Assembly (NCBI GenBank): GCA_016930365.1
Contig: JAFGGY010000043.1
Coordinates: 1 to 40,463 of the forward strand
Reading direction: 5' to 3'
DNA length: 40,463 nucleotides
Source of the DNA: Prolixibacteraceae bacterium
GTDB taxonomy: Bacteria; Bacteroidota; Bacteroidia; Bacteroidales; Prolixibacteraceae
Below, piece after piece: positions 283 through 39,091 of the stretch. Both the position numbers and the translations under genes were made by a program. How positions within the stretch are numbered: position 1 is the first letter of the stretch; each line of letters opens with the position of its first letter. The notes beneath the pieces are model-generated. The model was not told where the DNA came from, ran no database searches, and saw only the letters and a list, made by a program, of their open reading frames with translations.

Positions 283-528
283 TTATTGTGCAATCAGTTC
301 TTGTGCTCTATCTAAAATTGAGGTGTCATCAAGTAAAACAATTCCCCCATCAGGGCCGGGTTCGGTATGAATACCAACTGATTTGCCATTTTCATAGTTT
401 GCTCCTCCGAAGTAATTCCTGACGGTTTCAACTTCAACACCAAATTCATCGGCTAGTTTTTTCATTGCACCGTCAGGTAGGCTGTCTTTAATCTTTCGAA
501 GTTCATTGAATGTTATTTTTTTTGTCAT
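283..528 (-). CDS. Small conserved protein with a helix-turn-helix-like N-terminal half
   Basis: This 81-residue protein has no signal peptide or membrane segment, so it is expected in the cytoplasm. Residues about 21-39 (AMKKLADEFGVEVETVRNY) have the spacing and residue pattern of a helix-turn-helix: a short helix with Ala, a Gly turn, then a recognition-like helix with Thr-Val-Arg. This suggests DNA binding. The C-terminal half has a Gly/Pro/Asp-rich linker (EPGPDGG) and ends in a short helix. I do not recognise a named family and assign no target. It is a single-gene unit with its own terminator. A short ORF could in principle be spurious, but the clear terminator and amphipathic helices argue for a real gene. 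The 229 bases upstream, to 757, hold no other gene that I can see. Confidence 0.7.
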   Translation of the reverse strand: MTKKITFNELRKIKDSLPDGAMKKLADEFGVEVETVRNYFGGANYENGKSVGIHTEPGPDGGIVLLDDTSILDRAQELIAQ

Positions 529-757: not shown

Positions 758-3718
758 TTAATAAATTGTGTATCGAAATGAATTTTGACAATTATAAATC
801 GCTTGTTGCATTTCAGGTCTGAAATTTTTAGTGAAAAGTTTGGTGTTGTTTCGGCTTGGATAAACACGATTTGACATAAATATGAAAATTAGCTCATTTT
901 CAGGGTCTGCCCAGGCAAATGTTCCGGTAAAACCACTATGTCCAAAGCTTTTTTCGCTCACTGATATAGCTGGATACGCATCAGTCAATTTTTTTGAAGC
1001 ATTATCAATGTATGGCTTATCAAATCCTAAGCCTCTGCGATTTTCATTTTTAGGGTACTGAATACGCGTAAATTCTTCTACTGTTGTTGGTTTTAAATAA
1101 TTAAAATCGCCAAAACTGCCTTTTTGTAGGTAAAATTGCATAATCTTGGCCAAGTCGTTTGTGTTGCCAAATAAACCTGCATGCCCCGATACACCACCCA
1201 TTAAAGCAGCGCCCTCATCGTGAACAAAACCCTGTACTAATTCTTTTCGAAAAAGTAAATCAAGCTCAGTTGGCACAATATTATTAATATTAAATGTTTG
1301 ATATGGTTTATAACCAACACTTGTTGCTCCCAAAGGTGTTAAAAAGTTATACTTCAAATTGTGTTCATAATTTATTTTTGTTAAATGTTCCAGTAAATCA
1401 GGCATCAAATAAAAGGCAAGCCCCGAATATACGTAATCATTAGTTCGTAACAATTTACTGTCTCTTATCATGCTTAACATTTGATTCCTGTATAAATTGT
1501 TGACGAACAGTGAATTCGACATGCGTACAGAAAAGTCTCTGGTAGGATTAGTCCGAATAATTTTTCGACGATCTGTGGGATCTTTTAGGTTGACATCCAG
1601 ATAAAAAGCTATCCAAGAACGTAAACGTGCTTGGTGGGCAAGCACTTCACGAAAAGTAAAAAAGGCCTTGTCCGTATTTTGAAAATCGGGCCAATACAAG
1701 CTAAAAGGTGCATCAAGATTGATTAGAGAATCTTCAACCGCTTTCATTATTAATGGTAAAGGCCCGGTTATTTTCGTCAGTGAAGCCCAATCGTAAACAT
1801 GCTCTTTTGCTAACGGAACAATACTGTCGTATGTGAAATAGCCATAAGGTTTATGAAAAATTACTTTTCCTTGTTTTGCAATCAGAACCTGGCATCCCGG
1901 GAAAATTGTATCCCGAATCCCATCGTGTGCAAATCGATTAATGGTTTTCATCAGCGAATCTGAATCGAAACCGGCTTCCTCGGGTATCGTATATTTTAAT
2001 CGTCCTGATGCCGATACCTCTAAGCCATGCCCTTGGGCGTACTTGCCGGCAATACTTACAGGAAGTTTACCATCGGCACCTATAGCTCCAAAAATAAGCT
2101 GTGCCGCATATTCCTGGTAATATTCGTGCGAACCGTATCCCAAAACAATGGCTTTGGCGTTATCAATTCCCCGATAATATTGAATGGAATATGGATTGGC
2201 AAAATAAGCCAGGATACTTTGCTTATAAGTCGCAATTTTATTCACTGCTTCAATATGTATATCTCGAACTCCAAAATGATTCCCGGCCGAAAGATTTGTT
2301 CCGAAAACACCCACTACGAGCAGGTTGTATGCTTTCAGTTTACCTAACAGTGTGTTCAGGTCGGCCATCGAAGCATCGTTCCCCAGGTGAAAATTATCAA
2401 TATTGGTGTAATTTGAGAGCATAATCTGAAACGCAGTTTCTTCTTTGCTGCCTACCGAAATCGATGCTATTCGCAATGTATCAAGCCTTTGAAGTGGAAT
2501 GCGCTTGTGTTCGTTTTTAAGAACCGTCAACGATTTTTCATGCAAAAGTCTTGAGGTAAGACGATATGCCCCTTTGTTTATTTCATTACTCAGTTTTTGA
2601 CTTTTAAAAGATTGAGCAGAATAAAGACCAGCCCATTTTTTTGACATTAACACTTTTCGGCATTTGTGGTTTATTTCGTCAACCGACAGGTCTCCATTTT
2701 GAATAGCCAACTTAATGTTTTTCGAAATAGCTGCTGGATTCAATACAAATTCGATTACATCAACACCGGCTTGCAAAGCTTTTACTGCAGCTTTTCCTTC
2801 GTCGAAATAGTTGGTTATACCCTTCATGTTCATCCCGTCGGAAAAAACCAGTCCTTCAAATTTTAATGAATCGCGAAGAAAATCGGTCATTACTCTGGGC
2901 GATAATGTACCCGGTAAACCCGATTTGTCGACTTGGGGCAAACTAATATGAGCACTCATGATTCCATTAATTCCATGCTCAACAGCATGTCGAAAAGGCA
3001 CAAAATCAATTGAGTCGAGTTGAGCATAATTACGGTTTACGGCCGGCATGGTTAAATGCGAATCGTACAAGGTATTGCCATGACCAGGAAAATGCTTCGC
3101 GGTTACAATGAGTCCTTCGTCTTGCATGCCCTGAGCCATTGCCCATACTTTTTGAGCTACTTTTTCTGGGTTTTCGCCAAATGAACGATAGTTGATTATC
3201 GGATTATTCGGATTTGAGTTCACATCGGCAACCGGAGCAAAATTTAGATTAATACCTAAAGCCTTGCATTGTTGGCCTACTTCGCGCCCCATGCGATATA
3301 GTAAACTGTCATTTTTAAGTGCTCCCAATCCCATCGCATATGGATACTGAATCACCGAATCGAGTCGGAACGAAAGCCCGTTTTCGGCATCGAGTGCCAT
3401 AAAAAGAGGAATGGCTGCTTTTGCCTGGTATCGCTGAATACTTTGTGCCAATTGGGTTGGTGTGTTTTTCAAAAAAAGCACTCCCCCGATATGATAATCG
3501 TGTATATATTTCAGAATTACATTTTCGTTTGCTTCGCCCTGCGAAGGGTAGGACGTAACCATTATAAGCTGGCCAATTTTCTCATCAAGACTCATTGTAG
3601 CCATAATCGAATCGGCCCAATGTGTTCCGGCATCAAAAAAAACAGGCCTCTGCGAAAAAACCTGAATTGGAAAAACAACTAAAAAAAATAAAACTATAAA
3701 TAATTGTGCGTTGCGCAT
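758..3718 (-). CDS. Secreted GH3 beta-N-acetylglucosaminidase fused to a beta-lactamase-fold serine hydrolase (NagZ-AmiE-like)
   Basis: About 986 residues from the ATG at 3718. That start gives a clean signal peptide (MRNAQLFIVLFFLVV...FSQ) and leaves a 69-bp divergent gap to the next gene; an upstream extension to 3796 would add an implausible leader. Residues about 35-365 are a GH3 catalytic domain with the NagZ signature KHFPGHGNTLYDSH (208-221; the Asp-His pair is the acid/base) and the nucleophile Asp294 in SDGMNM. Residues about 395-560 resemble the GH3 C-terminal domain. From about 580 a class C beta-lactamase-fold domain follows, with SLTK (646-649, catalytic Ser and Lys), Tyr764 in YSG and HSG (927-929). 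In B. subtilis the separate enzymes NagZ and AmiE (beta-lactamase family) remove GlcNAc and the peptide from muropeptides. The fused domain is therefore inferred to be an N-acetylmuramoyl-L-alanine amidase, though an esterase or peptidase is possible. The adjacent namZ supports this. Confidence 0.88.
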   Translation of the reverse strand: MRNAQLFIVLFFLVVFPIQVFSQRPVFFDAGTHWADSIMATMSLDEKIGQLIMVTSYPSQGEANENVILKYIHDYHIGGVLFLKNTPTQLAQSIQRYQAKAAIPLFMALDAENGLSFRLDSVIQYPYAMGLGALKNDSLLYRMGREVGQQCKALGINLNFAPVADVNSNPNNPIINYRSFGENPEKVAQKVWAMAQGMQDEGLIVTAKHFPGHGNTLYDSHLTMPAVNRNYAQLDSIDFVPFRHAVEHGINGIMSAHISLPQVDKSGLPGTLSPRVMTDFLRDSLKFEGLVFSDGMNMKGITNYFDEGKAAVKALQAGVDVIEFVLNPAAISKNIKLAIQNGDLSVDEINHKCRKVLMSKKWAGLYSAQSFKSQKLSNEINKGAYRLTSRLLHEKSLTVLKNEHKRIPLQRLDTLRIASISVGSKEETAFQIMLSNYTNIDNFHLGNDASMADLNTLLGKLKAYNLLVVGVFGTNLSAGNHFGVRDIHIEAVNKIATYKQSILAYFANPYSIQYYRGIDNAKAIVLGYGSHEYYQEYAAQLIFGAIGADGKLPVSIAGKYAQGHGLEVSASGRLKYTIPEEAGFDSDSLMKTINRFAHDGIRDTIFPGCQVLIAKQGKVIFHKPYGYFTYDSIVPLAKEHVYDWASLTKITGPLPLIMKAVEDSLINLDAPFSLYWPDFQNTDKAFFTFREVLAHQARLRSWIAFYLDVNLKDPTDRRKIIRTNPTRDFSVRMSNSLFVNNLYRNQMLSMIRDSKLLRTNDYVYSGLAFYLMPDLLEHLTKINYEHNLKYNFLTPLGATSVGYKPYQTFNINNIVPTELDLLFRKELVQGFVHDEGAALMGGVSGHAGLFGNTNDLAKIMQFYLQKGSFGDFNYLKPTTVEEFTRIQYPKNENRRGLGFDKPYIDNASKKLTDAYPAISVSEKSFGHSGFTGTFAWADPENELIFIFMSNRVYPSRNNTKLFTKNFRPEMQQAIYNCQNSFRYTIY

Positions 3719-3787
3719 ATATTTTTCGATTTTTGTACGATTCGGGAATTCACGTAAATTTATAAAAAAACCAATATAAACAAGGCA

Positions 3788-4969
3788 ATGAAACAAGTTC
3801 CTGTCATCATTTTAATAAGTTTTGTATTGCTTGCTTTGCTTACAAGTTGCCCAGCCATAAGCAAATCTCAGTCACCAATATGTGCAGCCGAACAATCTGA
3901 TACATACCTCAGCCTGCTAATTGATAAAAATGTAGCACTTATGGCTAACCATACCTCACTGATTGACAGTGTACATCTGCTCGATTTTCTTGTTTCGAAA
4001 CAGGTGCATGTAAAAAAAATATTTGCCATAGAACACGGGTTCAGAGGCGATGCTGCCAATGGCGAAGAAGTAAACAGTTCGGTTGATCTGCAAACCGGAT
4101 TGCCTATTGTATCGCTGTACGGCGAGAAAAAAAAACCTTCGAATTACGATCTTGAAAATATCGATATTGTTGTATTCGATATGCAAGATGTAGGATGCCG
4201 GTTTTACACCTATATCAGTAGTATGCATTTGCTCATGGAGGCTTGTGCTGCAAATAATATTGAACTTTTAATACTTGACCGACCCAACCCGAATGGCGAT
4301 TATATTGCCGGGCCTGTATTGAATCCTAAATTGAAATCGTTTGTGGGTATGCATACCATACCCGTTGTACACGGGTGCACTATTGGCGAACTTGCCTTAA
4401 TGATAAACGGCGAAAGCTGGCTCGAAAACGAACAACAATGTATGCTAACCGTTATACCTGTGAAAAATTATACGCATTCAACAACCTATATTCCTCCTGT
4501 AAAGCCATCACCTAATCTTCCCAATTATCAGTCTATTCGTTTATATCCTTCGCTTTGCTTTTTTGAAGCTACAAATGTAAGCATTGGCCGAGGTACTGAT
4601 TTCCCGTTTCAGGTTATTGGTTTTCCTGGTTTCGATGAAGGAGATATTCGTTTTACTCCTGAAACAATACCTGGCGTAAGTGTTAATCCAATTTATGAAG
4701 GTGAACAATGTGATGGCATCGATTTAAGAAACCAAAATCCGGCACCTGTTTTCACCTTGAAATACTTTCTGCAACTTCATAACCAGATGGGAGATACCCT
4801 TTTTTGGAAAAGCAAAAGGTGGTTTGAAATGCTTTCGGGCAGCGAAACACTTTACCAGCAAATTAACGATGGCTGGACAGAAGAACAACTAATACAAAGC
4901 TGGCAGTCTGACATCGAACACTTTAAATCAATTCGAAAAAAATATTTATTGTACCCTGAATTTGAATAA
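3788..4969 (+). CDS. namZ: Exo-beta-N-acetylmuramidase, NamZ family (DUF1343, GH171)
   Basis: This 393-residue protein matches the DUF1343 family in length and landmarks: ALMANHTS near residue 56, EHGFRGD near 83, FDMQDVGCRFYTY near 132-144, LDRPNPNGD near 165 and the SIGRGTDFPF segment near 260. The N-terminus is a lipoprotein signal with LTSC (Cys21), so it probably sits on a membrane facing the periplasm or outside. Characterised family members (B. subtilis NamZ/YbbC) release terminal MurNAc from the non-reducing end of peptidoglycan fragments. It diverges from the NagZ-hydrolase fusion and is followed at once by a symporter gene. Assignment of the family is secure; substrate is inferred from relatives and context. 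Confidence 0.9.
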   Translation: MKQVPVIILISFVLLALLTSCPAISKSQSPICAAEQSDTYLSLLIDKNVALMANHTSLIDSVHLLDFLVSKQVHVKKIFAIEHGFRGDAANGEEVNSSVDLQTGLPIVSLYGEKKKPSNYDLENIDIVVFDMQDVGCRFYTYISSMHLLMEACAANNIELLILDRPNPNGDYIAGPVLNPKLKSFVGMHTIPVVHGCTIGELALMINGESWLENEQQCMLTVIPVKNYTHSTTYIPPVKPSPNLPNYQSIRLYPSLCFFEATNVSIGRGTDFPFQVIGFPGFDEGDIRFTPETIPGVSVNPIYEGEQCDGIDLRNQNPAPVFTLKYFLQLHNQMGDTLFWKSKRWFEMLSGSETLYQQINDGWTEEQLIQSWQSDIEHFKSIRKKYLLYPEFE

Positions 4970-4970
4970 C

Positions 4971-6422
4971 ATGCAAGCATCAACCCTACTCGTTATTTTC
5001 ATTGCTTACTTTATCGTACTGCTTATAATTTCATTTTTTACAGGTCGTAAAAACAGCAACCAGACATTTTTTACAGGCGATAAGAAATCACCCTGGCTTG
5101 TGGTGGCTTTTGGCATGGTGGGAGCTACCTTATCGGGGGTTACTTTTATATCCGTTCCGGGCGAAGTTGGACAAAGTTCATTTCACTATTTGCAATTTGT
5201 ACTCGGAAATTTTGTGGGCTATCTCATTATTGCCTTGCTTTTACTTCCTTATTACTACAGGCAAAATGTCATTTCAATTTATACGGTTCTTTCTGAAAAG
5301 ATGGGGCAACATGGTTACTTATCCAGCTCGGGCTTTTTTATTCTTTCGAAACTTATTGGCGCTGCATTCCGACTTTACCTTGCTGCACTGGTTATATATA
5401 TGGCTATAGCTCAGCCTTTGGGTATATCATTCGGCATAACGGTACTTGTTTGTTTGCTTTTTATTTGGCTTTACACCGTAAAGTCGGGTATAAAAACAGT
5501 GGTGTGGTCCGATGCGCTGCAAACTGTAGTTTTGCTTGCTGCGGTTGTAGCCACAATAATTTCACTTTCGCGGCAAATGAATATAAAGATGTCCGATTTG
5601 TCCGGAATCTTAACCGACAACAGTTATACTCAAGTTTTTAATTTTGAGTTGCATTCGCCCAACAATTTTTTTAAACAATTTATCTCCGGAATTTTCATAA
5701 CTATTGCACTTAATGGTTTCGATCAAGACATCATCCAGAAAAATCTTACGTGTAAAAACTATCGTAAGGCGCAAAACAACATGCTTGTTTTTAGCTTATT
5801 ATTTGTAGTAACTGTTTTTGTTTTTCTGGTTTTGGGAGCTATGCTTTACCATTTTGCTGAATCGAAAAATATTGCAGTTCCGGCAAATACCGACCAATTT
5901 TTCCCACTTGTTGCTTTAAATTATCTCGAGCCTGTTGTTATTGTATTATTTACGCTGGGTATATCGGCTGCTGCATTTTCGAGTGCCGACTCAGCCACTA
6001 CTGCTATAACGACAGCTTTTTCAATCGACTTTCTAAAAATAGACAAGAAAACACACCATAAACATACCCGCAAAATTGTCCATCTGGGGGTAACTCTTCT
6101 GTTATTTGCCATCATATATCTTTTTCATAAACTAAACAACCAAAGCGTTGTGGTTGCTATTTTTAAGGCTGCCGGTTATACATACGGCCCAATTTTGGGT
6201 GTTTTTATGTTCTCATTTTTCATAAACCGAACGCCCCGGCAAAAATTTATTCTCCCTATTTGCTTGCTTTCGCCAATAATAACTTATGTTATAACGTTAT
6301 TGGCTTGTAAGTATTTGAACAACTACGAGTTTGGTTTTGAATTAATCATCGTAAATAGCCTGTTGACGATTCTTTTTTTAACAATATTTTCAAAAAATGA
6401 GAGAAATGTTAAAAAATATTAA
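4971..6422 (+). CDS. Sodium:solute symporter (SSS family)
   Basis: The protein is about 483 residues from ATG 4971. A TTG at 4962 would overlap namZ by 8 bp but gives no better N-terminus, whereas the ATG start begins directly with the first membrane helix (STLLVIFIAYFIVLLIISF). It is hydrophobic throughout, with roughly 13 membrane helices. It carries SSS landmarks: the TGRKN loop after helix 1, GATLSGVTFISVPG in helix 2, GFDQDIIQKNLTCK near residue 247, and SAAAFSSADSATTAITTAF near 335-353, the Ser/Ala-rich segment associated with sodium binding. It lies 1 bp after the namZ stop, so the two are probably cotranscribed. From that context the substrate may be MurNAc or another muropeptide-derived sugar. 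SSS proteins carry many substrates, and the sequence alone does not decide. Confidence 0.88.
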   Translation: MQASTLLVIFIAYFIVLLIISFFTGRKNSNQTFFTGDKKSPWLVVAFGMVGATLSGVTFISVPGEVGQSSFHYLQFVLGNFVGYLIIALLLLPYYYRQNVISIYTVLSEKMGQHGYLSSSGFFILSKLIGAAFRLYLAALVIYMAIAQPLGISFGITVLVCLLFIWLYTVKSGIKTVVWSDALQTVVLLAAVVATIISLSRQMNIKMSDLSGILTDNSYTQVFNFELHSPNNFFKQFISGIFITIALNGFDQDIIQKNLTCKNYRKAQNNMLVFSLLFVVTVFVFLVLGAMLYHFAESKNIAVPANTDQFFPLVALNYLEPVVIVLFTLGISAAAFSSADSATTAITTAFSIDFLKIDKKTHHKHTRKIVHLGVTLLLFAIIYLFHKLNNQSVVVAIFKAAGYTYGPILGVFMFSFFINRTPRQKFILPICLLSPIITYVITLLACKYLNNYEFGFELIIVNSLLTILFLTIFSKNERNVKKY

Positions 6423-6516: not shown

Positions 6517-7956
6517 TTGAGAATCAACATCTCTGTCATATTATCATTATTTATTTTGCTAAGTGTACTTTTTGTAGCTTGCGAAGATGACAATTACATC
6601 TCATCAGACGATGCAAAATTGTCGTTCTCAACCGACACCCTGATGTTCGATACAATTTTCACCACTATTGGTTCTACAACCAAATCTATACGGGTTGTCA
6701 ATACACATAATAAGCCAATTCTCATATCGTCGATTCAGCTTGGAGGGCTCGACGAATCGTCGTACCGATTAAACATTGACGGCGAAATGGCTAACGAAGC
6801 CAGTGGAATTGAAATAGCAGCCAACGATAGCATGTACATTTTTGTAGAACTCACTATTGACCCAAACGGATCCAATCAGCCTATGGTTGTTGCCGATTCA
6901 ATTGTTTTTGTTACCAATAGCAACATTCAGGATGTTAAACTGATGGCCTGGGGACAAGATTTTCATCCTATTAATTCCGAAATTATTGAAACAACCACCT
7001 GGACCAACGATAAACCATATCTAATTTTCGATTATGCAGTTGTTGACAGTAGCCAGGTTTTAACCATACAACCCGGAACCCAGATTTACTTTCATAAAGA
7101 TGCCGTATTGGCTGTAATTGGAAACATTCAGGCTCTTGGTACTCCGGATATGCCAATTCGCTTCTCGGGCGACAGGCTCGAAGCTTTATACAACGATATC
7201 CCCGATCAGTGGGGAGGTATTAAGCTATTCCCAAATGAATTACCTCATGTTTTTGATAACGTAGAAATCATCAATGCACGCACAGGCCTTCAGGTTGGAG
7301 AAATTGATGTTGAGGGTGTTACGAGTATTCGGCTGCACAACACGAAAATCGAACATATGGGCTATGCCGGATTGTTTGCAGTAAATGCCAACATCGAAGC
7401 AAGTAATACCGTTATTTCCGATTGTGGCTACTATTGTGTATTACTTGCCGGAGGAAGTTATGACTTTACACATTGTACCATTGCCAATTATTGGGGAAGC
7501 TATTCAAACCGGCAAACTCCATCGGTTATCATGACTAATTTGCTCGCATTTGCACAGGAAAGTGACACCATTTGGTTTAATGGCGATCTTCTAAAAGCCG
7601 ACTGGAACAACTCAATTATATGGGGAAACTCCAAAAGTGAAATTGAATTTGGCAACAACGAAGGATACCAGTTCAACTATCAATTTACTAATAGTTTGGT
7701 GAAAATATCAGACACCCTGTTTAATGCTCAACAAGAGAATTTCAAATCAAGCATTATCAATATTGACCCGAGCTTTGTTGATTTTAGCAAATACGATTAT
7801 CAGCTTGATACCCTTTCGCCTGCAAAAGATGCCGGATTACTTAAATATGCCGAAAAAATCCCGTACGATTTAAACAATATTTCTCGTTTATCCGACGAAC
7901 TCCCCGACCTTGGTGCCTATGAACGAATTGAAAAGAAAGCCAAAGAAAGCGAATAG
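6517..7956 (+). CDS. Outer-surface-type lipoprotein with a right-handed beta-helix domain
   Basis: 479 residues. The start is a TTG: an in-frame stop at 6508 leaves no upstream alternative, no in-frame ATG lies nearby, and the resulting N-terminus (MRINISVILSLF...LFVAC) is a textbook lipoprotein signal with Cys22. Residues about 30-140 look like an Ig-like beta-sandwich with repeated short strands. Residues about 165-340 contain beta-helix-type repeats (DNVEIINARTGLQV, HNTKIEHMGYAGLF, SNTVISDCGYYCVL, DFTHCTIANYW), in which asparagine and small hydrophobic residues recur every 22-25 positions. Such proteins often bind or act on polysaccharides, but no catalytic residues are recognised, so no function is assigned. 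It overlaps the next gene by 38 bp, which implies translational coupling. Confidence 0.8.
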   Translation: MRINISVILSLFILLSVLFVACEDDNYISSDDAKLSFSTDTLMFDTIFTTIGSTTKSIRVVNTHNKPILISSIQLGGLDESSYRLNIDGEMANEASGIEIAANDSMYIFVELTIDPNGSNQPMVVADSIVFVTNSNIQDVKLMAWGQDFHPINSEIIETTTWTNDKPYLIFDYAVVDSSQVLTIQPGTQIYFHKDAVLAVIGNIQALGTPDMPIRFSGDRLEALYNDIPDQWGGIKLFPNELPHVFDNVEIINARTGLQVGEIDVEGVTSIRLHNTKIEHMGYAGLFAVNANIEASNTVISDCGYYCVLLAGGSYDFTHCTIANYWGSYSNRQTPSVIMTNLLAFAQESDTIWFNGDLLKADWNNSIIWGNSKSEIEFGNNEGYQFNYQFTNSLVKISDTLFNAQQENFKSSIINIDPSFVDFSKYDYQLDTLSPAKDAGLLKYAEKIPYDLNNISRLSDELPDLGAYERIEKKAKESE

Positions 7957-12327: not shown

Positions 12328-13779
12328 TTAATTTGTTGCAACATTGGGAGGTCCAAGTCTTGTCATTGCGCAGCGGAAGCCAATATCGGCAGATGCTTCG
12401 CCCTGATCAAGAAAACGACGCGAGCCGGGGTTTAACCAATAAGCTCTATCGCGCCACGAACCGCCTTTAAATACTCTTGCGCGGTCGTCAATTCGTGAGC
12501 TGATTAAACCTGGTTCATCACTTTTAACATACATATTACTGGTTGTAGTTGTGCTTTGAGCTTCGGTTTCGGGTTTTTGACCAGCCCAGTCGTTGCCTAA
12601 TATCTGGTTCGAGCGATAATCACCATCAATATAGTTTCGATAGTCGGCAACAGTATCAACTCTTGGTTGTCCAAATTCATCAAATAGTATTTTGCCATCG
12701 TTGTCTCGTTCGTATTCGGTAATAATATTACCTCTGTAGGGTTGAAACTCTTCGATGTCGATTGGAGATAAGGGCCTATATACATCGGCTACCCATTCGT
12801 TAACGTTACCAGCCATGTTGTATAAACCATAATCGTTTGGCGAGTAGGAAAATATGTCAGCGGTAATGTCGGCAGCATCGTTTAAGGCACCTGCCATACC
12901 CATGTAGTCTCCACGTCCACGAACGTAGTTGGCTTTCATTTGTCCTTTGGCTTCTTTGGTTTCTTTACGAATGTATGGGCCATCCCATGGGTACATTCTG
13001 CGCTCGGTAAGTAATTCACCATCCGATTCGCCAATAAGTCCTAAAGCAGCGTATTCCCACTCCGCTTCGGTTGGAAGTCGGTAATTTGGAAGCAACAATC
13101 CGTTTTCCCAACGAATTTTTTTGCTGTCTTCTCCGGTAATTCCTTCGTATTGTCCCGATAAATAGCCGGTTGTAGTAAATACATTTTCGTTTTGCTGTGC
13201 TGAATCGAGGGTTAGGTATCCATTTTTAATCAACAGGTCTTCGTTTACCCGGTCGGTACGCCATTTGCAATATTCCGTAGCTTGTTCCCAGCTTACACCT
13301 ACTACCGGATAGTTGCTGTACGATGGATGCCTGAAATAGTTATTTACATAGGGTTCGTTGTAGGCCAGTGGGCTTCTCCATACAAGTGTGTCGGGGGTGG
13401 CTAATCTGGCTTTATCCGAATCAGGATAAACATGTGCTAACCATGAAAGATACTGACGATAATCGTAGTTCGATATCTCTGTTTCGTCCATATAAAACGA
13501 AGCTACAGTTACTCTGCGCGGTTGATTGTCCCAATCGCCCATTATATCTTCGTCGATTCGTCCCATGATGAATGTTCCACCCTGAACAAATCGAAGACCA
13601 GGACCGGTTTGTTGTTCGATGTACTCCGGATCTTCAAATCCGAATACTTCCATATCACTAACATTCCAGCCAATGGTGCGCGATGATTGTTTGGCCCGGT
13701 TTCTGCCACTGTTTTCAGTGCTTTTACAGCCTGTAACAATTAGTGTCAGCACTATAATACAGATTGATAATTGTCTCAT
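12328..13779 (-). CDS. gldJ: Gliding motility / type IX secretion lipoprotein GldJ (SUMF1-like)
   Basis: 483 residues. The N-terminus is a lipoprotein signal (MRQLSICIIVLTLIVTGC, Cys18). The body is a formylglycine-generating-enzyme (SUMF1) fold: GPGLRFVQGGTFIMG (about 60-73), DNQPRRVTVASFYMDETEIS (about 84-103), VVGVSWEQATEYCKWR, LPTEAEWEYAALG, YNMAGNVNEWVADVY and the closing FKGGSWRDRAYWL...GFRCAM. The family is shared by GldJ and GldK/PorK. I favour GldJ because the segment DIMGDWDNQPRRVTV resembles it, and because in Flavobacterium gldJ lies beside porU, porV and murF, as here. GldJ is needed for stability of other Gld/Por components. It is transcribed divergently from porU. PorK is the main alternative name. 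Confidence 0.82.
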   Translation of the reverse strand: MRQLSICIIVLTLIVTGCKSTENSGRNRAKQSSRTIGWNVSDMEVFGFEDPEYIEQQTGPGLRFVQGGTFIMGRIDEDIMGDWDNQPRRVTVASFYMDETEISNYDYRQYLSWLAHVYPDSDKARLATPDTLVWRSPLAYNEPYVNNYFRHPSYSNYPVVGVSWEQATEYCKWRTDRVNEDLLIKNGYLTLDSAQQNENVFTTTGYLSGQYEGITGEDSKKIRWENGLLLPNYRLPTEAEWEYAALGLIGESDGELLTERRMYPWDGPYIRKETKEAKGQMKANYVRGRGDYMGMAGALNDAADITADIFSYSPNDYGLYNMAGNVNEWVADVYRPLSPIDIEEFQPYRGNIITEYERDNDGKILFDEFGQPRVDTVADYRNYIDGDYRSNQILGNDWAGQKPETEAQSTTTTSNMYVKSDEPGLISSRIDDRARVFKGGSWRDRAYWLNPGSRRFLDQGEASADIGFRCAMTRLGPPNVATN

Positions 13780-13805
13780 TTTCCAAAAAATTATCAGTTT
13801 TGCAA

Positions 13806-13813
13806 CAAATATA
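13806..13813 (-). promoter_or_regulatory. Candidate -7 box for gldJ
   Basis: The minus strand reads TATATTTG, an exact TAnnTTTG match, placing the transcript start about 20 nt upstream of the gldJ ATG. The -33 region is poor. The rest of the AT-rich divergent region up to 14128 (about 315 bp) shows no further gene or clear porU promoter. Confidence 0.4.
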
Positions 13814-14128
13814 ACTAAAATGATTAAATAGTTATTGCATTAAGAATGTTTCTTTATTATTGCATAAAATTTTAAATCAAAACAGACAACAAACTCTTTT
13901 ATGCCTAGGTTTGTTTCTTTATGTAATGCATTAAACGGAGATTTGCGAAGCTTATTTTATGAAATATAAAAATATTGATTTTATACTATTCTCTTTGCCT
14001 TTCCGTTTTAAAAAGTAATTGTGCAATTATATAAAAAAAGCACGTTATAATCTAAAAAAAAATGGCATATATTAAATCGTTGGCTCTCAGATGGGCAAAT
14101 GCAATTATTTAAAAGAAAAAATTGACGA

Positions 14129-17100
14129 ATGAAGCAATTTTCATTAATTATAGCTCTTATTTTAGGATATACAATTAATATATCAGCTGCAAATCTTTCA
14201 CAAAACTCGGTTCTTGCCACCGGAAAGTGGATAAAAGTGGCAACTACAAAAGAGGGCATTCATAAAGTTACTTATCAAAACCTAAATTCTTGGGGTATTT
14301 CAAATCCATCAAATGTTGCGGTATTTACCAATGGCGGATACCTCTTGCCCGAACATAACAATATCCCTTATCCCGACGATTTAACCAAGATTCAGGTAGT
14401 ACATGGGAAAGATCATAATAACAACGATTGTATATTTTTCTATTCAACCGGCATTGTGAAATGGACATACAATGAAAATACATCTCTTTTTGAACATACC
14501 CGAAATTTGTATTCCGATTATACCTACTTTTTTATCACATCTGATAATCAAAAATCAGATGCTCCATTGGTAAAGGAAATTTATAGTCAACTGGCCGATA
14601 CCACGCTTTTAACCTATAATGGATATAAGCTTTACGAAAAAGAGCTGTCCAATATTTACAAATCAGGAAGAATATGGTTTGGCGACGATGTGCTTAGCCC
14701 TTATGGCCTAAATATTAACTTTTCGTTTGATGACATTGCCGACAACATTGCCACAATGATGCTTTCGGCTACAGCCGCTTCCGATGTAACATCTGAATTT
14801 CAAATTTCATTGAACGATCAAAGACTTCCAGGTACGATGCAATTTCCTGCAAAAAGTCAGGAAAATGCAGTGCCTGTCATATTTTCGAAAACGATAACTG
14901 CTTCTTCTTCGATGGATTTCAGACTGGATTACTTTTCGAATGAGGCCAGCGGAAAAGCATGGATCGACTATTTAACCATAAACCGAAACTTGAAACTGAA
15001 ATTTAACAGCGAACAGCTTTCGTTTCGAAATAGTGATGCCCGTAAGTATGATTGGGTTGAATTTGTGGTGAATTCAGACAACAATAATCTCATACTGCTC
15101 GATGTTACCGACCCCCTTGATGCTTGTGAAATAGAGTATGTTGCAGATTTGAATGCGCTCCGGTTTACCGACGAAGGAGGCGATATCAAAAACTACGTCA
15201 TTTTTGACCCAAAAAGCAATGTATTGCCCGATGTTTCATTTATTGAAAATGTCGAAAATCAGAATATTCACGGCGAGCCAGATTACGATATGATTATTGT
15301 AAGCCATCCCGATTTTGTTAGCGCGTCTGAAAGGCTGGCTGATTTTCATTATCAAAATGACGGCTTAAAGGTTTTGGTACTCGAAACACCGAAAATATTC
15401 AACGAATTTTCGTCGGGAGCCAAAGATGCATCCGGTATTCGAAATATGATTCGTTATTTTTATCGTAAAGCTGAAGCCAACGGGAATGAGCTTAAATATG
15501 TTTTACTAATGGGTGATGGATCTTTCGATAATAAAGGAATCGATCAATCGACCAATTCAAACTACATACCTACTTACCAGTCTGGTGTTTCCAGCGATGG
15601 ATCGTCGATTACTTCCGACGATTTTTATGCTTTACTCGACGAAGAAGAGGGAGCCTTATTGGGTAAAATTGATATCGGAATTGGTCGTATTCCCTGCGAA
15701 AACATCAACGAAGCAAACCTGGTGGTAGATAAAATTATTAAATATGCTTCGCCCGAAACCTTTGGCAACTGGCGTAACATTATTTCATTTTGGAGCGACG
15801 ATGAAGACAATAATATTCACATGAGCCAAACCGAACAATTGGTTTCAATTGTTGAAAACAACTTTACCGGCTTTTATATCGACAAAATTTACTTCGATTC
15901 ATTTAAACAGGTTTCATCATCCGATGGCGATGCATATCCCGAGGTTAACAAGCGAATTAATCAGCAAGTGAACGATGGTGCACTGATACTTAATTACGTA
16001 GGGCATGCAAGTACAATAGCGGCTGCTGCTGAGCGAGTTCTCACTCTTAGTGATATATCTTCGTGGAGTAACCAGGATAAATTGCCAGTATTTGTTACGG
16101 CAACCTGCGAATTCAGCCGATTCGACGATGTCAAAAAATCAGCCGGCGAAGAAATTCTTTTTCATCCCGCAGGAGGTGGGGTGGCTTTATTCTCAACCAC
16201 ACGAATAGTTTATTCACATCGAAACTTTACATTGAGCTCAAACTTTTACGCCAATGCTTTTAAAAAAGACGAAGAAGGAAAAAATCTGCGCATGGGCGAT
16301 ATAATGAAACTGGCCAAAAACGCTACCAATGACAATGGAAACCGACGAAGTTTTGCTTTATTAGGCGACCCGGCATTGCGACTGGCTTTTCCTACGTACA
16401 AAGTAAACACCAAATCGATTAACGGACAGGCTGTTGACGAACCCGTGCAAGTTGGTGCAATGGATAAAGTACGTATCGAAGGCGAAGTAAGCAACCATAA
16501 CAACGAAGTATATACAAACTACAACGGAACGGTTGATGTTACTGTTTACGATAAAAACTTAAAAACAAAAACATTGGCGAATGATGGGGGAAATCCTTAT
16601 GAGTACGAAATTCAGAATAATATCATATACAAAGGCAAAGCAACAGTGAAAAACGGCACATTTGAATTCTCATTCGTTGTACCCAAAGATATTAGTTACA
16701 GTATTGGCAACGGAAATATTTACTATTACACCTATAACGAACAGGTTGACGGACATGGTTCGTGCGATAAGATTGTAATTGGAGGTTCGGGAAGCAACCC
16801 CGTTATCGACAATACACCACCCGATGTGCAGCTGTATATCAATAATGAAAACTTTAAAAACTACGACAAAATTGCATCTAATGCTTTGCTTATTGCTCGT
16901 ATTTACGACGAAAGCGGAATTAACACCGTAGGAACCGGCATTGGACATGACGCGACGGCAGTGCTAAACGATGATTTTACAAGCCAGATTGTGCTGAACG
17001 ATTATTACGAAGCCGACACCAATTCATATCAAAAGGGCACCATTGTTTATCCCTTAAACGGCCTTGAGCCGGGAGAACACAAACTGTCGGTTAAAATTTG

Positions 17101-17464
17101 GGATGTTCAAAACCAATCATCAACAGCCGAAATACATTTTATAGTAGATGATGAATTTAAAATTACTCATGTGTCGAATTATCCCAATCCGGTACAATTC
17201 GACACGAATTTTTACATAGAGCACAATTTGCCGGGGCATGTTTTTGATGCTCAATTGGATATATTCAATCTTGCAGGACAACAAGTCCATCAGAGCATGC
17301 AGAAAATAAGCTCAAACAATACCGTTGAGAACACGATTGAATGGGACATTTCGCAAAGTACAACCCACATACCCCGAAGAGCCATACTGGTTTATCGAAT
17401 TTTATTGCAAAACAGCGAAGGGCAAAAAGCCAACGGAACTGGAAAAATGATAATTAATTATTGA
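14129..17464 (+). CDS. porU: Type IX secretion system sortase PorU (C25 gingipain-like)
   Basis: 1111 residues with a signal peptide (MKQFSLIIALILGYTINISA). The central part is a C25-family cysteine peptidase domain: the catalytic His is His626 in NYVGHAST and the catalytic Cys is Cys660 in FVTATCEFSRFDD. Further domain landmarks are YVLLMGDGSFD near residue 460 and SDDFYALLDEEEG near 495. A beta-rich middle region follows. The C-terminus (about 1010-1111) looks like a type A T9SS sorting domain, with SNYPNPVQF and DIFNLAGQQV. PorU removes the C-terminal signal of T9SS cargo and attaches it to lipopolysaccharide at the outer surface. The usual GHG around the histidine is GHA here. It is followed by porV, its partner. 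Confidence 0.93.
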   Translation: MKQFSLIIALILGYTINISAANLSQNSVLATGKWIKVATTKEGIHKVTYQNLNSWGISNPSNVAVFTNGGYLLPEHNNIPYPDDLTKIQVVHGKDHNNNDCIFFYSTGIVKWTYNENTSLFEHTRNLYSDYTYFFITSDNQKSDAPLVKEIYSQLADTTLLTYNGYKLYEKELSNIYKSGRIWFGDDVLSPYGLNINFSFDDIADNIATMMLSATAASDVTSEFQISLNDQRLPGTMQFPAKSQENAVPVIFSKTITASSSMDFRLDYFSNEASGKAWIDYLTINRNLKLKFNSEQLSFRNSDARKYDWVEFVVNSDNNNLILLDVTDPLDACEIEYVADLNALRFTDEGGDIKNYVIFDPKSNVLPDVSFIENVENQNIHGEPDYDMIIVSHPDFVSASERLADFHYQNDGLKVLVLETPKIFNEFSSGAKDASGIRNMIRYFYRKAEANGNELKYVLLMGDGSFDNKGIDQSTNSNYIPTYQSGVSSDGSSITSDDFYALLDEEEGALLGKIDIGIGRIPCENINEANLVVDKIIKYASPETFGNWRNIISFWSDDEDNNIHMSQTEQLVSIVENNFTGFYIDKIYFDSFKQVSSSDGDAYPEVNKRINQQVNDGALILNYVGHASTIAAAAERVLTLSDISSWSNQDKLPVFVTATCEFSRFDDVKKSAGEEILFHPAGGGVALFSTTRIVYSHRNFTLSSNFYANAFKKDEEGKNLRMGDIMKLAKNATNDNGNRRSFALLGDPALRLAFPTYKVNTKSINGQAVDEPVQVGAMDKVRIEGEVSNHNNEVYTNYNGTVDVTVYDKNLKTKTLANDGGNPYEYEIQNNIIYKGKATVKNGTFEFSFVVPKDISYSIGNGNIYYYTYNEQVDGHGSCDKIVIGGSGSNPVIDNTPPDVQLYINNENFKNYDKIASNALLIARIYDESGINTVGTGIGHDATAVLNDDFTSQIVLNDYYEADTNSYQKGTIVYPLNGLEPGEHKLSVKIWDVQNQSSTAEIHFIVDDEFKITHVSNYPNPVQFDTNFYIEHNLPGHVFDAQLDIFNLAGQQVHQSMQKISSNNTVENTIEWDISQSTTHIPRRAILVYRILLQNSEGQKANGTGKMIINY

Positions 17465-17496
17465 TGCACAATAAGCAAAAATTCGTTCCGTTATTC

Positions 17497-17504
17497 TATT
17501 TTTG
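17497..17504 (+). promoter_or_regulatory. Candidate -7 box before porV
   Basis: TATTTTTG in the 74-bp porU-porV gap fits TAnnTTTG, 35 nt before the porV ATG. No -33 TTTG is found at the right distance, so porV may equally be read from the porU promoter. Confidence 0.3.
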
Positions 17505-17538
17505 AGACCATTTATATTTTTTAACAGCATAAATTAAA

Positions 17539-18729
17539 ATGATGAAGAGGATATTAGCAACTTTAAGCGTACTTTTATTATTTATTTCACACATAAATGC
17601 ACAAGATGAAACCACCGGTAGTGCAGGCGTAGTTCAATCGGCTGTTCCGTTTTTGAATATCACAACCGACTCACGCTCGGGAGCCATGGGCGAAACCGGG
17701 GCAGCAACTGCACCCGACATTGCCTCGCAGGCTAAAAACCCGGCAAAATATGCTTTTACCGAAAGCACTTCGGGCATTGCTCTTTCGTACACTCCGTGGC
17801 TTAAGAATCTGGGAATTAACGATATGAGTATTGTGCATTTGTTCGGATATCATAAGTTGGACGATTTACAAACCCTTTCGGCCAGTTTGCGTTACTTCAA
17901 CCTGGGTGAATTCGATTTTTTCGACCGTTCCGGAGATCCTGCTGGTGGAAGTAATCCAAACGAATTTGCCTTTGATATGGGCTATGCTCTAAAATTAACC
18001 GATAACTGGTCGGGCTCGGTGGTTTTGCGTTATATTATGTCAGATATATACCAAAATGTTGGTTCTACAATTGAAGCAGCAAATTCTGACTTGGATGCAG
18101 GCCATGCTTTTGCTTCCGATGTTTCGTTTTATTACAATAAGGATTATTTTATCAATAGGAAAAATTCGAACATTGCTTTTGGGTTGAACATATCGAATAT
18201 TGGTTCAAAAATTACATACGACGGGGGAATCAGAAAGGATTTTATTCCTACGAACCTAAAAATTGGGGGAGCATACACAACCGAGATCGACCAATACAAC
18301 AAAGTGTCGTTTGCTCTCGATCTGAATAAACTGCTTGTGCCTTCTCTGTTGGAAGAAGGAATGCCAAAATACGACGAAACGGATCCTTATTTACAAAAAG
18401 TAGGTCCTATTGAAGGTATTTTCCGTTCGTTTGGTGATGCTCCTCTTGGTTTTAAAGAGGAAATTCAGGAAATTCATATATGCCTTGGTGTTGAATACTG
18501 GTACAACGAGCAATTTGCACTACGTGCCGGCTATGCCCACGAAGCAAAAGACAAAGGTGATCGGAAATACCTGACCCTGGGAGCCGGACTGAGAATGAAT
18601 GTTTTTGTATTTGATTTTTCATACATTATTCCATCGCTCGGAAATACCAATAACGCACTTGGCAACACACTGCGTTTCACCCTCGGTTACGATATCGATA
18701 ATTTCAGACGCCAGGGACGAAGACGATAA
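17539..18729 (+). CDS. porV: Type IX secretion outer membrane protein PorV (LptO)
   Basis: 396 residues with a signal peptide ending at INAQD. The N-terminal stretch FLNITTDSRSGAMGETGAAT followed by SQAKNPAKYAF is the hallmark of PorV/PorQ-type FadL-like barrels. The rest is rich in alternating beta strands with aromatic ends (LRYFNLGEFDFFD, YALKLTDNWSGSVVLRY, ALRAGYAHEAKDKGD), and the last strand is LRFTLGYDI. PorV carries cargo from the Sov translocon to the PorU attachment complex. It sits between porU and ispF, with only 2 bp to ispF, an order that I recall from Porphyromonas gingivalis as well. Confidence 0.93.
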   Translation: MMKRILATLSVLLLFISHINAQDETTGSAGVVQSAVPFLNITTDSRSGAMGETGAATAPDIASQAKNPAKYAFTESTSGIALSYTPWLKNLGINDMSIVHLFGYHKLDDLQTLSASLRYFNLGEFDFFDRSGDPAGGSNPNEFAFDMGYALKLTDNWSGSVVLRYIMSDIYQNVGSTIEAANSDLDAGHAFASDVSFYYNKDYFINRKNSNIAFGLNISNIGSKITYDGGIRKDFIPTNLKIGGAYTTEIDQYNKVSFALDLNKLLVPSLLEEGMPKYDETDPYLQKVGPIEGIFRSFGDAPLGFKEEIQEIHICLGVEYWYNEQFALRAGYAHEAKDKGDRKYLTLGAGLRMNVFVFDFSYIIPSLGNTNNALGNTLRFTLGYDIDNFRRQGRRR

Positions 18730-33311: not shown

Positions 33312-34730
33312 TTATTCGCTTTCGTTTTGCACAGCCAGTTGCCCGGTTGCTTTCAGGTAAGCCGATTCTTTTATTTTGCAATCGGCGCGTGCATCAATCA
33401 ATTCGCTGTAGGTTTCCTGCCATTGGGCTTGTGCTTCGAGCAGCTCAGGCAGTATTTTCATCCCTAATTCGTAGTTGTCGGAGGTTACCCTCAGGTTTTC
33501 ATAGGCTTGTTCAAGGCTTTCTTCGGCCATTTCAACGCGGGTAATGGCATCGTTGAGGTTGAGCCTTGCCTGTGTGATTTCCAGTTCGAGCAGGCGGCTG
33601 TTTTTTTCGAGTTGGGCTTTTTTAATGTCCACCTCGTGCTGCGCCGATTTAATTTTTTTGAAGCCTTCGCCCCAGTGAAAGAGTGGAATTTTGAGCGAAG
33701 CCATAATACTGGTATTTCCATCTTCGAAGCTTTGGTCGGCATATTCAATCCCACCTATATAATTGTATCCCACTTGTAAGCCGGCAGTTGGGAGAAAATC
33801 GGCACGGGCAAGTTTTATTTGTTCGTTGGCCAATTCAATTTGTTTTTCGAGCAGGCTGTATTCAGGTCTGAAACTTATACCCTGTACCTTGCCCGGGGTT
33901 ACCGGCTGGATGACATTTTTAAGGCTGTTGGTGCTTATAATTTCCGTTTCGAATGGCAGGCCGACAGCACGGCATAACGCCATGCGGGTGAGTTTGAGCC
34001 CGCTTTGTGTTTTTTGGTGTTCCAGCTTTGCCTTGTTCAGTTTTACTTTCACTTTAAGCACATCGTTTTGTGTACTCATGCCTGTTTCGTAAGCATCTTG
34101 TGTGGTTTCAAGCAATTCTTCGAGCAGTTTTTTATATTTTTCGGCAAGCTTTACTTTTTCTTGTACGGTAACATACAACCAGTACGACTGGTCGGTGTTA
34201 TGGATGGTCTTTTCGCGTTCAAGCTTCAGGTTCTCACGTGTCATTTCAATACCAATTTTTGCCATGCGGTTTCCGGCTGAAATTTTTCCTCCCGTGTAAA
34301 TGGGTTGTTCAAGCGACACCCCGGCCATATAAGCTCCTTTCAGGCTTATCTCAAGTGGCAGCCATCCATAAACATTGAAAACAGGATTCCCGTCGGGTCC
34401 CATTACGGGTTCCCCGGTTGAGGGGTTGAGCATATAATTGGGCTCAAGCTCGCCCGATAGCGGATTGGGCTTGGCAGTTGGTATGTGCATTTCCATTTCA
34501 ATGTCGTTAAACAGGTATGCACCGGTAGCACTACCCGATAACGACGGGAAATATTGTGTTTTCATGGCCGCCCTGTCTGTCTTGGCTTTTTCAAGTTGAA
34601 GACGCGCAATTTCAATGTTTTCGTTTTGTTCCAAAGCCATTTCGCGGCATTGTTCAAGCGAAAGCGTTTGTTGGGCAAAACCTCCCGTAACAATTGAAAT
34701 TAATAGTATTGTGAAAATATATCTGTTCAT
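33312..34730 (-). CDS. TolC-family outer membrane efflux protein
   Basis: 472 residues with a signal peptide (MNRYIFTILLISIVTGGFAQ). It has the two-fold repeat of the OEP family: long amphipathic helices such as LSLEQCREMALEQNENIEIARLQLEKAKTD (split, about 22-52) and a second set beginning SLLEKQIELANEQIKLARADFLP near 295, with beta strands (AGVSLEQPIYTGGKI, MASLKIPLFHWGEG). It forms the outer membrane channel of the pump encoded upstream. The gene lies 13 bp after the RND gene. An about 45-residue insertion rich in Pro/Asn/Gly near 75-120 (SGELEPNYMLNPSTGEPVMG) is seen often in Bacteroidota homologues. Confidence 0.93.
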   Translation of the reverse strand: MNRYIFTILLISIVTGGFAQQTLSLEQCREMALEQNENIEIARLQLEKAKTDRAAMKTQYFPSLSGSATGAYLFNDIEMEMHIPTAKPNPLSGELEPNYMLNPSTGEPVMGPDGNPVFNVYGWLPLEISLKGAYMAGVSLEQPIYTGGKISAGNRMAKIGIEMTRENLKLEREKTIHNTDQSYWLYVTVQEKVKLAEKYKKLLEELLETTQDAYETGMSTQNDVLKVKVKLNKAKLEHQKTQSGLKLTRMALCRAVGLPFETEIISTNSLKNVIQPVTPGKVQGISFRPEYSLLEKQIELANEQIKLARADFLPTAGLQVGYNYIGGIEYADQSFEDGNTSIMASLKIPLFHWGEGFKKIKSAQHEVDIKKAQLEKNSRLLELEITQARLNLNDAITRVEMAEESLEQAYENLRVTSDNYELGMKILPELLEAQAQWQETYSELIDARADCKIKESAYLKATGQLAVQNESE

Positions 34731-34743
34731 TTTATTTTGTTTT

Positions 34744-37700
34744 TTACTGTTTCTTGTGTGATGTTGATAAGGCTTTTTCGGGGCTTAATTCTTTTTTGGA
34801 AATACGGAATAAGGCTGAGTACAATATGGGCACGAAAATCAGGGTGATGATGGTACCAGCCAGTAACCCGCTGATAATGGCAACGGCCATGCTGCTGTAC
34901 ATGGGGTCGAAAATGAGTGGCAGCATGCCCAAGATAGTGGTGAACGATGCCATAATAACAGGGCGTGTCCTTGATATGGTAGCATTGACCACCGCTGTGT
35001 AGCGAGCCACACCTTCGCTGATTTGTTTTTCAATTTCATCAAGCAAAACAATCGAATTTTTTATAAGCATACCCATTAACCCGAAAGACCCGATAATGGC
35101 CATGAACGTGAACGATTGCCCGGTGAGTATTAATCCGGGTACAATGCCAATGGCAGCCAGCGGTATGCATAATATAACGATGGCCGGTTTACGGTAGTCG
35201 TTAAAAAGGAGTAATAGAATGATGATAATAAGCATGACCGAAATAGGCAGATAACTAAAAATATTGGTCAGTGCATCTTTTTGCAGGTCATATTCACCCA
35301 GCCATTTCATTGAATAGCCTTCGGGCAGTTCAATTGCCTCAATTTCATCTAAAATGGTATTGCGGACCAGTTCCGGACTACTGCCTTCGGCCGGGTCGCA
35401 CTGGGCTTCGATGGCCCGTTGTCCGTCGGCGCGGCGTACAAGGCTCTCGCTCCACTGCATGTTCACACCGCTGGTAACGGCACTAAGTGGCACCGGGCTC
35501 ATAATTTTTTTGGTAACCTCGTCGATACTGCTTGAGCCGTAAAATACATCCATCACATCTTCCTGTTCAACATTGGCAATGTTGGGCAGCATGTTCCACA
35601 CGGGTATGTCCCTGATGTCTTCAATTTTTGAGCCGTCGCTGTTGCGTGTTTTCAGGTTGATGCTGTAAGCCGTTTCGCCCTCGTAGTATTGGGCTACGGG
35701 AACGCCACTGGTAGCGGCCAGTATCGAGTTGCTCACATCGGAGCGCGAGGCTCCGGCACGGCTTGCAGCTTCGCGGTCGTAACGTGCCATCAGCGCTTTC
35801 CCCATGGGGTTCCAGTCGTCGCAAACCGAATATTTATCAACATACGGGTTTTGTAGCATAATGGCCTGTGCTTGTTCGCTCAAATCGCGCAATACGGCCG
35901 GGTCGGGACCTTTAAACTGTACCTCGACCATGTGCGACGATTTAACCGAAAGGGTGTATTTGCGGGTGCGGATGTAAGCATCGGGAAAATTCTGGCGCAG
36001 GTAGTTTTCAAGCACGGGTTTCATTTCAACCATGGTGTCGTAATCGTCGAAATTAACGATGAGCTCGCCATAATTATCACCTGCTTCGCCCATGGCGCGC
36101 ACAAGGCTGTAACGTGTTGGGGTCATGCCCTGGCTCGAAACCACCATTTTCACCTCTTCGTAAGTTTGAAAATGGTCGGATATTGTTTTTAAATCTTCGT
36201 TTACCTTATCGGGCGAAGTGCCATCGGGCATGGTATATTGCACATATACCTGGTTGTAGTTAAAATCGGGGAAGAAGGCTTTCTTTACATTTTTAAAGTT
36301 GTAGGCCGAAATGGCCAGTAATATCACGGCCGTGGCAATGGTAACCGTTTTGTGGTTTATTAAAAATGACAAAATTCTGCGGATGCCGTGGTAAAGTTTT
36401 CCATCGAAGGGGTCTTGTTTCTTCTTCGATTTTTTCAATTTCAAAAACTTTTCGGAGAAAACCGGTACCTGCGTTATAGCGAGAATCCAACTCACGGCCA
36501 GCGAAATACATAAAACAATAAATAAGTCGCGGGCATACGTTCCTGCTGTATCTTTTGATAAAAATACCGGAAGGAAAGCCACAATGGCGATGAGGGTAGC
36601 ACCCAGCAATGGCATGGCTGTACGTTTTGGGGTTTTTACCAGTGCTTTTTTGCGTTTTTCGCCCTGTTGCATGCTCACGGCAATGCCATCCACCACAACA
36701 ATGGAGTTGTCAACCAGCATACCCATGGCTACAATAAAGGCACCCAGCGAAATGCGTTGCAACGAGCCACCTGCAATGAGAAGAAAGGGGAAAGTACCAA
36801 GGATGGTAAGCAACAACCCGGTACCGATAATCATGCCGCCTTTTAGGCCCATGGTAAGCATCAGCGCGATAACCACAATGATGACCGATGCCACGAGGTT
36901 CCAAATAAAACCATGAATGGCATCGCGCACCTTATCGGGCTGGAAAAATACTTTCTGGATTTCGAACCCGGCTGGTAAACTCTTTTTAAGTTCATCCATG
37001 CGAGCATCAACCTTTTCGCCCAGTTTGATGATGTTTTCACCGCTTTCCATCGATGCCGAAATGGCAATGGCTTTTTCGTTGTTCACGAACATGGTGTTTT
37101 TAAGCGGGTCGTTATAGCCTTTTTTAATGGTGGCAATGTCGCCCAGTTTAAACTGTTCGCCGGTGATGCTTTTCACTATGATGTTATGGATATCGTTGGG
37201 GCCGGTAATTTTTTCATTGATATCGACCCTGAGTTGTTGTGTGCCGGTGGTAAGTACCCCGGGGTACACCATCTGGTTTTGCCCGGCAATGGCCGACATA
37301 ATTTGCATGGGCGAAACTCCCATTTCGCTCATTTTATCTTTGGTGAGTATGATATCGACACAAGGTGCTTGTTTACCATAAACCTGCGCACGGCTTACGC
37401 CTTCGGTTTCGAGCAGTTCCTGTTTGATGTAATCGGCGTATTTGCCCATTTCGTGGTACGAGTAACCATTGGCGGTAAGGGCGTAAAACATACCATACAC
37501 ATCGCCCATGTCGTCTATCACCACTGGGGGCTGTGTGCCCTCGGGCAGTTTGGCTTGTGCAGTTTGAACCTTGCGGCGGAGGAATTCCCAACGTTGTTCA
37601 ATTTCTTTTTGCGGAACCGTCATTTTCAGCTCTACCGTTATGAGCGAAATGTTGTCTTCCGATTTCGATGTTATGGAGTTGATGTCGCCCAGCGTACTCA

Positions 37701-38981: not shown

Positions 38982-39091
38982 AGTTGTATCGAATTGAATA
39001 TTTGGGTTGAATAACGGGGACAAATTTCTGTAATTGACCATTCAGATGCCCGAAAAAAATACTGAAATGATAAAAATGGGGGATGAAATGT

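Follow-up and report, generated by a model that had tools for sequence, protein, structure and literature searches.

The window, by which we mean the whole 40,463-nt stretch analysed here (contig JAFGGY010000043.1 of a Prolixibacteraceae bacterium), carries a gene for an exported two-part protein that diverges from a namZ gene, which is followed in turn by the gene for an SSS-family symporter. A first-pass annotation made from the letters alone had described an exported fusion of a GH3 domain to a beta-lactamase-fold domain, divergent from the gene of a NamZ lipoprotein and then an SSS transporter. The three open reading frames lie where that annotation had placed them, and coordinates, Pfam matches and motifs all agree with its description. 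The features, with the evidence for each, are as follows.

758–3718, minus strand: predicted nagZ-amiE fusion gene, product of 986 aa including a signal peptide (open reading frame, Pfam, motifs, AlphaFold2 model)
848–1906, minus strand: AmiE/PBP4B-type serine hydrolase domain (Pfam, profile scores, tree, signature)
1994–2593, minus strand: GH3 domain 2, approximate limits (structural alignment to the second domain of BsNagZ; no Pfam match)
2648–3589, minus strand: GH3 catalytic domain 1, PF00933 (Pfam, BsNagZ alignment, 40 homologues)
3719–3787, no strand: divergent intergenic region, in which 69 bp separate the start codon of the fusion gene from that of namZ
3788–4969, plus strand: namZ, GH171 exo-N-acetylmuramidase family, probable lipoprotein (Pfam; 4jja, E 5e-108; 35% identity to Bacillus NamZ)
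4962–6422, plus strand: SSS-family sodium:solute symporter, probable amino-sugar (MurNAc-type) importer (Pfam, neighbours in relatives)

The open reading frame of the fusion opens at a TTG (3796), in which the ATG at 3718 is residue 27. The gene most likely runs from 758 to 3718 on the minus strand with the ATG as its start, because a protein begun there carries a normal signal peptide (MRNAQLFIVLFFLVVFPIQVFS) and the gene then no longer overlaps namZ; residue numbers below count from this ATG. The symporter gene overlaps namZ by 8 bp. Elsewhere in the window, a tRNA-Val (64–139) follows a partial second copy resembling the end of a tRNA-Val (1–33) that is cut by the contig end, and an 81-aa open reading frame (286–528, minus strand; MTKKITFNELRKIKDSLPDGAMKKLADEFGVEVETVRNYFGG...) that appears HTH-like by eye lies downstream of the fusion gene. 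The T9SS/gliding genes gldJ, porU and porV are found close by (12328–18729), and a three-gene RND efflux system consisting of an outer-membrane factor, an AcrB-type pump and an HlyD-type adaptor occupies 33312–39041.

Both halves of the fusion are recognized by Pfam in a single frame (Glyco_hydro_3, E 3e-80; Beta-lactamase, E 3e-32), and the AlphaFold2 model of the protein has a pLDDT of 92.9 and a pTM of 0.91. For the first half, the first-pass reading of a NagZ-type GH3 domain in an exported protein is upheld by sequence and structure comparison alike. BsNagZ is the best PDB match of the fusion by sequence (E 1e-63) and, as 3bmx, the top solved structure against the model (Z 54.1, 533 aligned residues, rmsd 3.3), aligning to model residues 28–570, so that the two-domain GH3 fold is present. 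The KHFPGHG..DSH motif is in place, and alignment to BsNagZ locates the nucleophile at Asp294 and the accompanying Asp219-Ser-His221; across 40 homologues D294, D219 and S220 are invariant and H221 nearly so. These observations support a complete NagZ-type two-domain GH3 unit, predicted to act as an N-acetylglucosaminidase. A second NagZ-like GH3 protein, a single-domain probable lipoprotein, is encoded elsewhere in the window genome (L194; G000:C64, 4741–5856).

The second half bears the motifs SLTK (Ser646/Lys649), YSG (Tyr764) and HSG (His927-Ser-Gly929), whose catalytic positions, like those of the GH3 motif, are conserved in 40–41 homologues. To place this domain, a profile HMM built from 41 Bacteroidota homologues was compared with AmiE-type proteins from the nagZ loci of 80 Bacillota records, with E. 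coli YfeW, AmpC and AmpH, and with the remaining PF00144 proteins encoded in the window genome and in one Bacillus. AmiE and a longer AmiE form scored about 211–254 bits (AmiE 216) and YfeW 213, whereas none of ten other PF00144-type proteins, taken from the window genome, Bacillus and E. coli, exceeded 72. In a tree that came from a quick search with long outgroup branches, includes one very divergent Bacillus protein among the AmiE-like rows and leaves deep placement unsure, the domain forms its own long-stemmed clade beside AmiE plus YfeW and the long AmiE form, separated from most other PF00144 proteins. A signature, TE..GxVHD..GGxxGxAGxF..GH(S/T)GxTG, is common to the AmiE-like sequences including the fusion domain; every one of these sequences has D643, F850 and T931, which are missing from all ten other family members compared. 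Class C beta-lactamases were set aside on motifs (YSG and HSG stand where Y-x-N and K-T-G would be) and score (AmpC 40 bits versus 216 for AmiE), and on profile score, tree and motif a place for this domain among AmpH and the remaining PF00144 paralogues was likewise rejected. Profile, tree and signature thus bear out the AmiE-type assignment proposed earlier and support grouping this half with B. subtilis-group AmiE and E. coli YfeW/PBP4B. Since identity to AmiE is only about 26–28%, the type is supported whereas amidase activity is a prediction drawn from it.

A structure search with the model does not discriminate the function of this domain: its best solved structures are esterases and acyltransferases (EstG, Z 37.7; macrolactin acyltransferase), and no AmiE structure is among the matches. 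Grouping with esterases had been named beforehand as an outcome that would count against the amidase reading; checked by sequence, it did not overturn that reading. The structural matches do lend something to another proposal, in which the domain would be a PBP4B-like DD-carboxypeptidase or other peptidoglycan peptidase or esterase and the fusion would trim GlcNAc and stem peptides separately, as does the fact that YfeW, as close to the domain as AmiE is, is described as a penicillin-binding protein. YfeW, however, groups with AmiE (SH-aLRT 100), its gene sits in the E. coli murQ operon, and it may itself be AmiE-like; moreover, the repeated pairing with NamZ and one NamZ fusion, both described below, fit an amidase freeing MurNAc from peptide. 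We regard the carboxypeptidase or esterase proposal as improbable.

The identity of NamZ was confirmed by NamZ_N (5e-78) and NamZ_C (7e-32) matches that together cover the full length of the product, by its match to 4jja and by its 35% identity to the NamZ encoded beside nagZ in Bacillus. NamZ enzymes are exo-N-acetylmuramidases that free MurNAc, and the same activity is predicted for this family member. The symporter matches SSF (PF00474, E 8e-24). As for location, the fusion protein has no lipobox and no evident T9SS C-terminal domain, and the NamZ product, whose lipobox-like motif is LTSC, has no acidic surface-export signal after the lipobox Cys. With no recognizable surface-export feature in either, the simplest reading of these signals is that both proteins would be periplasmic. 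None of the adjacent genes that received an assignment is SusC/D-like, which would fit the reuse of material from the cell's own turnover at least as well as scavenging.

We then considered how the genes are linked in relatives, using the 37 genomes of the window's family and 24 order-level relatives. A fusion-type gene is divergent from namZ in 29 of the 37 family genomes and the SSS gene follows namZ in 28. Loss of this order in relatives had been set as a possible refutation, and its retention in most family members leaves the proposal standing. Among the 24 order-level relatives the fusion is adjacent to namZ in none, which makes the gene order a family trait, and in many family members the conserved block runs on through ORF6517, an exo-endo-phosphatase-family gene and genes for CCA, Trx, MurF and GldJ. 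Adjacency alone is therefore weak evidence, as synteny extends into unrelated housekeeping genes and no order-level relative keeps it, and conserved gene order was set aside as sole evidence.

Stronger evidence than adjacency comes from rearrangements. In several relatives the copy on the NamZ side lacks the GH3 catalytic domain while keeping the AmiE motifs and usually domain 2, and the tree needs several changes to account for these copies, so the catalytic domain was lost several times. The short fusion forms that lack this catalytic domain, mostly found beside namZ, are catalogued as L169–L175; among them L173 still has a domain 1, but a degenerate one without the KHFPGHG motif. One relative (L168; G020:C29, 986–4279) joins GH3 domain 2, AmiE and NamZ in a single chain of 1097 residues with full NamZ_N and NamZ_C matches. 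The symporter, for its part, has left namZ in four genomes in four different arrangements: its orthologue neighbours murQ in G020 and G021, both a kinase and murQ in G027, and a MurK-like kinase alone in G025. In G024 no more than about 5 kb separates it from the kinase, and in G026 it is beside the fusion gene. The chance of four or more such placements among 37 genomes is about 1e-6 to 1e-7, a rough figure that ignores relatedness. The MurK/MurQ linkage is seen in the orthologues of G020, G021, G025 and G027 and not at the window locus itself.

These rearrangements weigh on two further explanations. If the cluster were inherited synteny only, three functionally unlinked genes kept together in a conserved chromosomal block, the continuation of the block into housekeeping genes and the missing adjacency outside the family would be expected; a natural AmiE-NamZ fusion, symporter relocations that land beside murQ or the kinase, and the encoding together of the same three enzyme types in Bacillus would not, and we judge this explanation very unlikely. 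The GH3 half might instead serve mainly in the use of chitin oligosaccharides, with the second domain as an accessory: RmNag3, a related enzyme of Rhodothermus marinus, yields monosaccharide when given chitobiose or chitopentaose (PMC6987092). Against this, the associations are with NamZ and MurQ/MurK, no chitinase is found among the assigned neighbouring genes, and the AmiE domain is the part kept beside NamZ once the GH3 catalytic domain is lost; we accord a chitin role only a very slight probability.

The first-pass annotation had also supposed that the later steps of salvage are encoded elsewhere in the genome, which holds in part. The window genome encodes an AmpG-like MFS protein, with a score below the curated cut-off, and a MurK/NagK-like kinase that is 38% identical to the murQ-adjacent kinase. 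In this 89% complete genome, however, we found no murQ beyond a GlmS-like partial match and no anmK. Across the window genus murQ was undetected in 8 of 8 genomes (56–91% complete), while it is clearly present in 27 of 61 relatives. The MurK/NagK-like kinase gene of the window genome (L207; G000:C87, 5877–6893) lies beside an Asp/Glu-racemase-family gene, probably murI (6898–7725), and in the window genus the two are convergent. Two candidates for AmgK were rejected: an APH-family protein with a RapZ C-terminal domain (L191; G000:C167, 5259–6692), which has no recognized nucleotidyltransferase neighbour, and a protein beside a nucleotidyltransferase in G024, which Pfam shows to be an MFS transporter.

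With murQ undetected throughout the genus and no anmK found in the window genome, a symporter that carries GlcNAc is a real alternative. In this alternative the symporter of the window genus would mainly import GlcNAc released by NagZ, the kinase would be a GlcNAc kinase and MurNAc would not be catabolised. That SSS and kinase persist nonetheless in these genomes accords with such a role, as does the pairing of SSS gene and kinase in G025, another genome in which murQ is undetected. Three relatives, though, have the same SSS beside murQ, the incompleteness of the genus genomes tempers the absence of murQ, and the precedent is a MurNAc carrier: TfMurT of T. forsythia is a MurNAc importer of the sodium symporter superfamily that works with MurK (PMC5790795). 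We consider a mainly GlcNAc-directed system unlikely, if far from negligible.

Taken together, the locus probably encodes a periplasmic, exo-acting peptidoglycan salvage set made up of a fused NagZ-AmiE enzyme, NamZ and an amino-sugar symporter. Working at the non-reducing end of glycan fragments, the GH3/NagZ half would release GlcNAc, and the AmiE half would then cut the lactyl-L-Ala amide of the exposed MurNAc-peptide. NamZ would take off the peptide-free MurNAc and expose the next GlcNAc, so that the three activities could cycle along a strand. The symporter would bring a freed amino sugar into the cell, most likely MurNAc, on the model of TfMurT, and a MurK-like kinase whose gene lies elsewhere would phosphorylate it. 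What is observed are the identities of the domains, the AmiE-type grouping, the conservation of catalytic residues and the links that connect NamZ, AmiE, SSS, MurK and MurQ in the genomes of relatives; from these we infer each activity, the order of cycling, what the symporter carries and where MurNAc goes in a genus without detectable murQ. A broader picture can be offered tentatively, and we would put it somewhat below an even chance: a three-activity Bacteroidota cycle may take GlcNAc, peptide and MurNAc in turn off the non-reducing end, with modules repeatedly split and re-joined (NagZ-AmiE, AmiE-NamZ), and supply an amino-sugar importer driven by sodium, one genus without MurQ either using an unrecognized MurNAc route or discarding MurNAc.

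The architecture of the fusion is not new, because RmNag3 has the same domains and the type occurs across the Bacteroidota phylum. RmNag3 likewise comprises a GH3 domain 1, domain 2, a C-terminal beta-lactamase domain and a signal peptide (PMC6987092), and the window fusion, too, has three domains in one exported chain. Altogether, 202 of 247 Bacteroidota genomes match it at E 1e-60 or better, many near full length and in several classes, some of these matches being GH3-only or AmiE-only proteins. RmNag3 shows hydrolytic activity on pNP-GlcNAc as well as on chitobiose, and its authors propose a role in peptidoglycan turnover, citing the B. subtilis NagZ/AmiE parallel (PMC6987092); they neither modelled the third domain nor gave it an activity, and the neighbours they report differ, with no mention of namZ or SSS (PMC6987092). 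What the comparisons made here add, and support well, is the AmiE assignment of the second half together with independent genomic links among NamZ, AmiE, SSS, MurK and MurQ. For a protein type common to most sampled Bacteroidota genomes, whose "beta-lactamase" domain had no assigned function in the literature we reached, the assignment predicts a bifunctional muropeptide hydrolase, would speak against annotating such genes as beta-lactamases or resistance genes, and connects the SSS transporter with amino-sugar salvage, while a genus without detectable murQ poses a testable question about the use of MurNAc.

Other known systems share parts of this arrangement. In E. coli, NagZ is cytoplasmic (PMC5061867), and YfeW/PBP4B, which resembles the fusion domain in its AmiE-type signature and in its murQ-operon setting, is a stand-alone protein. 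The murTKQ genes of Tannerella forsythia combine a sodium-symporter-superfamily MurNAc transporter with a kinase (PMC5790795, PMC5388701). Relatives of the window symporter are likewise encoded next to a kinase and/or murQ, whereas the window symporter gene is downstream of namZ in a genus without detectable murQ; its likeness to TfMurT is one of superfamily and, in relatives, of neighbours. A further parallel is B. subtilis, where amiE-nagZ-ybbC lies within the murQ cluster (PMC5061867): in murQ-murR-murP-amiE-nagZ-namZ(ybbC), as in the window, homologues of NagZ, AmiE and NamZ are encoded together and exported, but there they are separate proteins served by the PTS importer MurP and by MurQ, while in the window no murQ was found, the importer is of the SSS family and NagZ and AmiE are joined in one chain.
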